Shown: positions 23,083 to 25,251 of the stretch, piece by piece
How positions within the stretch are numbered: position 1 is the stretch's first letter
How the letters are laid out: each line of letters begins with the position of its first letter
Source: Alphaproteobacteria bacterium
GTDB lineage: Bacteria; Pseudomonadota; Alphaproteobacteria; Rs-D84
Assembly: GCA_009782315.1 (NCBI GenBank)
Contig: WRJH01000005.1
Coordinates: forward strand, 1 to 33,608
Reading direction: 5' to 3'
Length of the DNA: 33,608 nucleotides
Notes under the pieces: model-generated
Database searches by the model: none
Told to the model about the DNA's origin: nothing
The model's input: the letters and a program-made list of their open reading frames with translations, nothing else
Translations under genes and position numbers: made by a program

Positions 23083-23255
23083 TGTCATTGCGAGGAAGGA
23101 TTAGCGTATGAGCCGCCTGTCGGCGAAAAGCTAATCCTGACGCGGCAATCCAGTAAATAGAGTGCGCCGGCATAGCCGGCGCGACAAATCAACTGGATTG
23201 CTTCGGCAGAAAAACACGACTGTTGCCAGTCGTGATTTTTCTTTCTCGCAATGAC
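23083..23255. repeat. Nested palindromic element, copy B (GTCATTGCGAGG family)
   Basis: tgtcattgcgagg...ctcgcaatgacg; gcgccggcatagccggcgc; cacgactgttgccagtcgtg. Confidence 0.9.
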
Positions 23256-23327: not shown

Positions 23328-23879
23328 TTAGAAATTGTAGACCGCACCCAGTTTGATCACGTTGTAGCCGCTGGATGTCGAGTTGGTATTGCCATCGAAA
23401 ATAGCATACGCATAGTTCCAACCACGGTTGTATTGCAGGTCGACCGCAATGTCATTGGTGATCGAATACTTCACGCCGCCGATGAACGCGCCATCCAAGT
23501 CAAAAGTGCGCATGGTCTTGTCGCTGCCCATATAATCGCCTTCGGCGTCATAATCAATGGCACCGATACCCAGACCGGCATAGACTTTCAGACCTTTCAA
23601 CGAAGATTCTGCTTTGGCCATGTCGAAATCGTACAAGACTTTCGCCTGCTGCAGGCCCAGTCTCATCCCAAAGTTGTCTTTGGTGTCGCTCAGGTCTGAT
23701 GTTCCGAAAACGTCGGCTTCCAAACGAATACCGTTTTCGAACGCATAACCGACCGCAATCGGCAGGCCCCACGCTTCGGATTTAGTGTTGTATGAACCGT
23801 AACCGGCGATATAGCCGCCCGCATTCGCGGACGCGAATACGCCCAGGCACAATACAGATGTTAACAATACTTTTTTCAT
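23328..23879 (-). CDS. Small outer-membrane beta-barrel (opacity/OmpA-barrel-like) protein
   Basis: Signal peptide MKKVLLTSVLCLGVFASANA; alternating hydrophobic strands; C-terminal VIKLGAVYNF. Confidence 0.8.
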   Translation of the reverse strand: MKKVLLTSVLCLGVFASANAGGYIAGYGSYNTKSEAWGLPIAVGYAFENGIRLEADVFGTSDLSDTKDNFGMRLGLQQAKVLYDFDMAKAESSLKGLKVYAGLGIGAIDYDAEGDYMGSDKTMRTFDLDGAFIGGVKYSITNDIAVDLQYNRGWNYAYAIFDGNTNSTSSGYNVIKLGAVYNF

Positions 23880-23978
23880 ATTGGTTTCTCCTTGTTTTCA
23901 AAACATAATTGTCTTGACCTGGGAATTTTATCCTGTGCCGTCCAACCGGCGCAAGAAATTTATTTTCATGCAACCCTA

Positions 23979-24057
23979 TTGACATTGCATGCGAATTAAT
24001 ATAGAATTGCGTTCACGAAACAATCCCCGCCAATCGGCGGGGATTTTTGTTTTTTTC
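23979..24057 (+). ncRNA. Candidate tiny RNA: promoter TTGACA-N17-TAGAAT directly followed by an intrinsic terminator
   Basis: -35 at 23979-23984, -10 at 24002-24007, hairpin tccccgccaatcggcgggga at 24024-24043, then TTTTGTTTTTTT. Confidence 0.5.
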
Positions 24058-24079
24058 AGTTATTGCAAAACACCCAACC

Positions 24080-24239
24080 CGTCATTGCGAGGAGCGTTTG
24101 TCTGACACGAAGTGTCTGCAAACGCGACGCGGCAATCCAGTAATTTGCCGCGCCAGCTTTGCTGGCGCACTCTATTTACTGGATTGCTTCGGCGCGCGCG
24201 CCGACGTTCCACGTCGGACTTGCGCTTCTCGCAATGACG
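24080..24239. repeat. Nested palindromic element, copy C (GTCATTGCGAGG family)
   Basis: cgtcattgcgaggagc...cttctcgcaatgacg; gcgccagctttgctggcgc; distal hairpin replaced by a different GC-rich palindromic segment. Confidence 0.9.
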
Positions 24240-24256
24240 CGGCGCTATGCGCCTTC

Positions 24257-24286
24257 AAAAAATCCGGCCGTTCGGCCGGATTTTTT
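24257..24286. terminator. Bidirectional intrinsic terminator after the second OMP gene
   Basis: AAAAAATCCGGCCGTTCGGCCGGATTTTTT. Confidence 0.9.
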
Positions 24287-24311
24287 GGTTCTAAAATTTG
24301 CCCCGCAAATT

Positions 24312-25160
24312 TTAGAACTGAACCCCGAACTTTGCGCCGAACTGCCAGAAATTATTGGCCATCGTGTCGTTGTTTTCGCTGTTCGCGGTCTGGAAATGAT
24401 ATCCGACATACGGCATGATTGCGGCATGCGGCACAACGTCGTATATCACGCCGAACATCAGATTGCGGTCGTACAGCATCGCTTCGTCGGAATTTTTGGC
24501 CAGGTTATAGATGTTATAATTGCCTTCCAGTTTCAATCCCAATTCGTTCATGATTTCGAATTCAAGTTCCGCTTTCATCAAAACGTTCCACATCGTGCTG
24601 CTGTCGGTTATGAAATCCGTCTGTTCGTTTGCGAACGCCATCTGCGCCAATGCTTGACCGGCCCATTGGAAACGTCCTTCGTCGCCATAGACTCGCAGAC
24701 CCGCCTGCAAGTTGTTCGTGCCGTCGGGGGCGACTGTGGAATTATTGTTCCATGCCAGGCCGTATTTACCGATGACGTCCAAAGCGACCGATTTCGCCGG
24801 GCGCATAACCTGCCAGTTGATACCGATTTCCGGGCTGGCCATCATGCCGCCGGACAGGAAATCGTTGTTGTTCATTTCGAACGACACATACAGTTCGTCC
24901 ATAACGCCGTATTTGACGGACAGTTCATTAATTATGAATCCGCCGCGTGAAAAGCTGTCCTGGGAATCGCCCGCCTGTCCCGTTTGGAAAGCGGCGCCGG
25001 TTGTCAACGCCCACATTCCCATCGTCGGACGGAACGTCGGATTGAACGTGGATTCGGTGATTTCGTTCCAGTCTTTTCCTTCATAGTATTTGAATTCGGC
25101 CGCGCTTGCTGATGCGAACACGCCCAAACACAATGCTGATGTTAATAGAATTTTTTTCAT
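24312..25160 (-). CDS. Outer-membrane beta-barrel protein (start MKKILLTSALCLG)
   Basis: Signal peptide MKKILLTSALCLGVFASASA; barrel-like alternating pattern; C-terminal FGAKFGVQF. Confidence 0.8.
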   Translation of the reverse strand: MKKILLTSALCLGVFASASAAEFKYYEGKDWNEITESTFNPTFRPTMGMWALTTGAAFQTGQAGDSQDSFSRGGFIINELSVKYGVMDELYVSFEMNNNDFLSGGMMASPEIGINWQVMRPAKSVALDVIGKYGLAWNNNSTVAPDGTNNLQAGLRVYGDEGRFQWAGQALAQMAFANEQTDFITDSSTMWNVLMKAELEFEIMNELGLKLEGNYNIYNLAKNSDEAMLYDRNLMFGVIYDVVPHAAIMPYVGYHFQTANSENNDTMANNFWQFGAKFGVQF

Positions 25161-25251
25161 GGTTGCTCCTTTTTGGTTGAACAGGGATATTTTACCATTC
25201 ATAGAAAATTACGCACCAGGAACGAATTCCGCGCGGCATAGCCGCGCGGAA

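Follow-up and report, generated by a model that had tools for sequence, protein, structure and literature searches.

A promoter facing a terminator between two outer-membrane protein genes: probably an ordinary upstream region rather than a tiny RNA gene

In the gap between two genes for outer-membrane proteins, OMP1 and OMP2, a promoter-like site runs almost directly into a terminator-like hairpin. The window, that is, the whole stretch of DNA that was analysed (33,608 nt), is contig 5 of its source genome (~815 kb, 88% complete, 51% G+C), which, judged by gene content and relatives, appears to be that of an alphaproteobacterium with a small genome. An earlier note had read the pair as a candidate gene for a tiny regulatory RNA, and the question addressed here is whether the surrounding evidence bears out that reading or a plainer one. 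Our verdict is that the intergenic arrangement is ordinary; it had been correctly observed and over-interpreted.

The gap and its two signals

OMP1 (23328–23879, minus strand) encodes a small β-barrel outer-membrane protein (Pfam OMP_b-brl, E = 1.3e-12). OMP2 (24312–25166, minus strand), an open reading frame for a predicted outer-membrane protein, gave no Pfam match above the cut-off; by inspection, the gene for a similar protein adjoins mltG in G002, a genome of the same genus (L115:4576–5454). From left to right, the gap holds the OMP1 upstream region, a palindrome, the plus-strand promoter, the hairpin with its T-tract, an inverted-repeat element and a symmetric terminator.

The plus-strand promoter is of the sigma-70 type and matches 11 of 12 consensus bases, with TTGACA at 23979–23984, a 17-nt spacer and TAGAAT at 24002–24007. 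Transcription is predicted to start at 24014/24015, and the boxes and the start near 24014 given in the earlier note were right in letters and coordinates. The genome was scanned for promoter-like sites matching 11 or 12 of the 12 consensus bases, using dinucleotide shuffles as the null. Noncoding DNA held 33 such sites against a mean of 2.6 in the shuffles. On the strength of this enrichment, the site is, on balance, likely to be usable by RNA polymerase. It follows equally that the promoter may be under selective maintenance, which counts against the reading favoured below. By crude gene calls, 22 of the 33 strong sites face a gene on the same strand; the site at 23979 is not one of them.

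The hairpin, AATCCCCGCC-AATC-GGCGGGGATT at 24022–24045 (10 pairs, loop AATC), is followed by TTTGTTTTTTT, as had been described, and the putative two-sided terminator extends over 24022–24052. Of its two T-tracts, the plus-side one is strong (8 of 10 T) and the minus-side one moderate (6 of 10), the latter being too weak for the stricter terminator scan. Folding of 24012–24057 gave −21.7 kcal/mol (z = −5.2). The hairpin is above chance. In form it is clearly a terminator, having the G+C-rich stem and the T-rich tracts on both strands that mark a bidirectional intrinsic terminator.

That the plus side has the better T-tract does not show that the hairpin serves the plus-strand promoter. Of 44 hairpins lying between co-oriented genes, 20 had the stronger tract on the wrong strand and 20 on the right one, and four were tied. 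In the noncoding DNA of both genomes surveyed, most terminator-like hairpins are two-sided (75 of 114 in this genome and 110 of 141 in G002), so that assignment of a strand from the T-tract is unreliable in this group. A two-sided terminator that once stood behind OMP2 is an adequate explanation of the hairpin; the two are now parted by the inverted-repeat element, which lies between hairpin and OMP2 (inverted repeat I1, 24080–24245). Term-seq work has described bidirectional terminators of this kind, flanked by A-rich and T-rich tracts (PMC12207403). The present hairpin shares their symmetry and their flanking A-rich and T-rich tracts; it differs in being a predicted terminator, in lying 14 nt from a promoter-like site, and in standing behind an inserted repeat element, 269 nt past the end of OMP2. 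OMP2 is the nearest minus-strand gene end, and this distance is unusually large for its terminator. Immediately beside the OMP2 stop codon is a second, symmetric terminator (inverted repeat I6, 24256–24287; 15-nt arms, A-tract and T-tract).

That the hairpin belongs to the dispersed repeat was ruled out, as the other copies of the repeat start beyond it: 12 more partial matches to 24080–24245 were found genome-wide and none includes the hairpin. The element is MITE-like, with ends CGTCATTGCGAGGAG...CTCGCAATGACG, and occurs on both flanks of OMP1 (24080–24245 and 23084–23255). Other partial copies lie on contigs C1, C2, C5, C8, C23, C26, C29 and C34. A similar element occupies the corresponding gap in G002, upstream of the first OMP gene (L115:3213–3325).

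Frequency and conservation of the pairing

How many promoter–terminator pairs to expect was estimated from how densely terminator hairpins occur in noncoding DNA. For promoters that match 11 or 12 consensus bases and have a terminator no more than 60 nt away, one pair was observed in this genome against 1.1 expected, and none in G002 against 2.1. At 10 of 12, pairs were rarer than expected, with one against 4.3 here and one against 5.8 in G002, a deficit to be expected if real promoters avoid terminators. The promoter facing a terminator is a chance-level juxtaposition. A tiny RNA gene could appeal to the pair being the only one of its kind in the genome at 11 of 12, but chance alone would supply 1.1. 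As a caution for similar cases, a strong promoter will face a terminator about once per genome by chance where terminators are two-sided, and such a pair should not be labelled a small-RNA gene unless it is conserved or backed by transcript data.

Conservation had been proposed as a check, and it did not favour an RNA gene. The rpsL–OMP–mltG interval was compared in three genomes of the same genus (G002, G003 and G004), together with the OMP1 homologues of four further members of the family (G013, G022, G025 and G028). A promoter followed by a hairpin upstream of OMP1 was absent from all seven; these relatives are distant, with OMP1 homologues only ~30–46% identical, and the absence is therefore weak evidence. 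In G003, a different divergent promoter matching 11 of 12 consensus bases, TTGACT-N17-TATAAT, stands upstream of OMP1 (L032:2107–2136), with no terminator behind it.

The same interval bears on a further explanation, that a plus-strand gene once stood between promoter and terminator and that its deletion left the two side by side. In favour of this, the genome is reduced and the rpsL–mltG interval is fluid within the genus, where it carries between one and three genes for OMPs, or other small genes. In the relatives that were read, however, no plus-strand gene occupies the spot, and the genes found there are on the minus strand. We regard such a deletion as very improbable.

The palindrome and the promoter of OMP1

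The perfect palindrome CATGCAA-N11-TTGCATG is present at 23967–23991 (centre 23979) and straddles the −35 box, as reported in the earlier note, which had proposed it as the operator through which a dimeric regulator controls the tiny RNA. This role was not borne out. Where further operators had been hoped for, the genome held no other perfect copy; all other matches carry two mismatches and form no plausible regulon, the most symmetric of them (C1:45280) sitting in a long coding frame that resembles recG. Across 93 genomes of the family, the palindrome was found in the source genome only (0 of the 92 others). Nor is the half-site TTGCATG/CATGCAA enriched, with 91 copies in 814 kb against ~99 estimated at even base composition. 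When the 141 bases at 23880–24020 were shuffled, 198 of 1000 shuffles held a palindrome with arms of 7 and a spacing of 3–20. The palindrome is not clearly above chance and is weak evidence for an operator.

As a genuine operator, the palindrome would more probably act for OMP1. The most likely OMP1 promoter is TTGCGC-N18-TAAAAT at 23925–23954 on the minus strand, with a weak −35 and a predicted start at ~23918. The offset of its −10 from the start codon equals that of the promoter in G004 and is close to those in G022, G025 and G028. Relative to this start, the palindrome is centred at −61, which is a classical activator position. That position, together with the weak OMP1 −35, is what would assign the palindrome to OMP1. 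A protein bound there may act on OMP1 and would also cover the divergent −35.

Potentially, a single −10 region could instead serve both directions, driving OMP1 leftward and a short RNA stub rightward, with the hairpin silencing the unwanted direction. The leftward −10 would be TATATT (24003–23998), giving a predicted start at ~23991 and a 5′UTR of 112 nt. The two predicted starts would then lie 23 bp apart, one of the spacings (10, 18 and 23 bp) common among E. coli bidirectional promoters (PMC12825309), and no OMP1-facing site with at least 9 of 12 consensus bases was found in 400 nt. The resemblance to known bidirectional promoters (PMC10268837, PMC12825309) extends to the opposed −10 hexamers and the spacing of the starts, but the leftward −35 is missing (best match 2 of 6). 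Reverse −10 hexamers at these same spacings accompany 15 of the 33 strong promoters of this genome, and the symmetry is therefore not diagnostic. The proximal TAAAAT, moreover, matches the position of the promoter in relatives. A bidirectional promoter is accordingly judged unlikely, with somewhat more in its favour than the idea of a lost gene.

The predicted RNA and the preferred reading

Should the promoter fire, the product is predicted to be a stub of ~39 nt (24015–24053, plus strand) that folds as one self-paired hairpin, its 5′ leader pairing with its own U-tract. The minimum-energy fold leaves unpaired only the 4-nt loop and the first five nucleotides of the stretch that was folded, with no seed free for target pairing. 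Hfq (PF17209) was not found in five genomes of the genus, three of them >90% complete, in searches whose controls were positive. At gathering scores, Rfam gave no match in six homologous loci; at a permissive threshold, all matches were well below gathering, that to the MicC model reaching 26.4 bits where the gathering score is 90. A distant-mode search of a phage collection also gave no match, and thus no sign of a phage oop-like unit.

These results bear on the proposal of an independent tiny RNA gene, repressed by a dimer at the palindrome and regulating the OMPs by antisense or trans pairing. Its attractions are the 11/12 promoter, the strong hairpin with a long T-tract and the palindrome over the −35. 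The part of the proposal that stands is that a stub of ~40 nt could arise from a likely usable promoter and a genuine hairpin. The regulatory role does not stand with it, the leader being self-paired, the arrangement unconserved and the pairing at the chance rate, with the palindrome confined to one of 93 genomes. Control of the OMPs in antisense or in trans finds no free seed, Hfq, conservation or Rfam match near gathering to lean on, and an antisense transcript of OMP2 would have to read through two terminators, the hairpin and the two-sided one at 24256–24287. Small RNAs of the MicA, MicC and MicF class, which regulate OMPs, are likewise found near OMP genes and have a hairpin with a U-tail; the stub, by comparison, is at most about half their usual length, lacks a free seed and conservation, and comes from a genus in which Hfq was not found. 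An independent regulatory gene is thus considered very unlikely.

Still more improbable, in our estimate, is a dedicated RNA of ~40 nt, consisting of almost nothing but a terminator and made from a repressible promoter in an Hfq-less organism, whose effect on the divergent OMP1 promoter would be exerted in cis, through RNA polymerase occupancy or a shared operator. Were the stub functional, few independently terminated RNAs known from bacteria would, to our knowledge, be shorter.

The reading that we favour, with reasonable though not high confidence, is that of an ordinary OMP1 upstream control region, in which a minor divergent or cryptic promoter lies beside a back-up two-sided terminator and any transcript is a by-product. 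TTGACA-N17-TAGAAT would probably be usable and functionally minor. The hairpin would most likely be a second barrier, shielding the OMP1 control region from transcription that arrives from the OMP2 side and the inverted repeat; transcription started rightward would be stopped there too. If the promoter fires, the outcome would be a self-paired stub of ~39 nt rather than a base-pairing regulator. The analysis shows the sequence, the predicted fold, the base rates and the lack of conservation in the relatives compared; promoter activity, termination and the lack of function are all points that we infer.

This control-region reading is supported by the chance-rate pairing, the two-sidedness of the terminators and the lack of conservation, as well as by the OMP1-facing promoters at matching offset in relatives and the palindrome at −61. 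With neither a free seed nor Hfq found, any transcript is probably a by-product. Against the control-region reading stand the strength of the promoter by consensus, the 269 nt between the hairpin and the end of OMP2, and the better T-tract facing the plus-strand promoter. By-product RNAs are known from other bacteria, in which start-site-associated RNAs of ~45 nt arise at active promoters (PMC3661553). The stub would be similar in predicted length and in starting at a promoter; it differs in that an intrinsic terminator would define where it ends, that no gene lies downstream, and that it is itself a prediction from sequence.

The rpsL–mltG interval was also observed to be a variable OMP island in the genus (23328–25166 of the window; L115:2332–5454; L032; L042). 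In the present genome it holds two OMP genes; G002 has three, one of them with a LysM-like N-terminus, and G004 has a single one; G003 has one OMP gene and a frame for a small cysteine-containing protein. A search with MltG among other named genomes returned one alphaproteobacterium from sheep rumen at 55% identity, the remainder being distant taxa. Within the window, the 5′ ends of OMP1 and OMP2, which cover the ribosome-binding site and signal peptide (23816–23897 and 25097–25178), are 72% identical over 82 nt despite the difference between the mature proteins. This suggests that the signal-peptide module was exchanged or duplicated.
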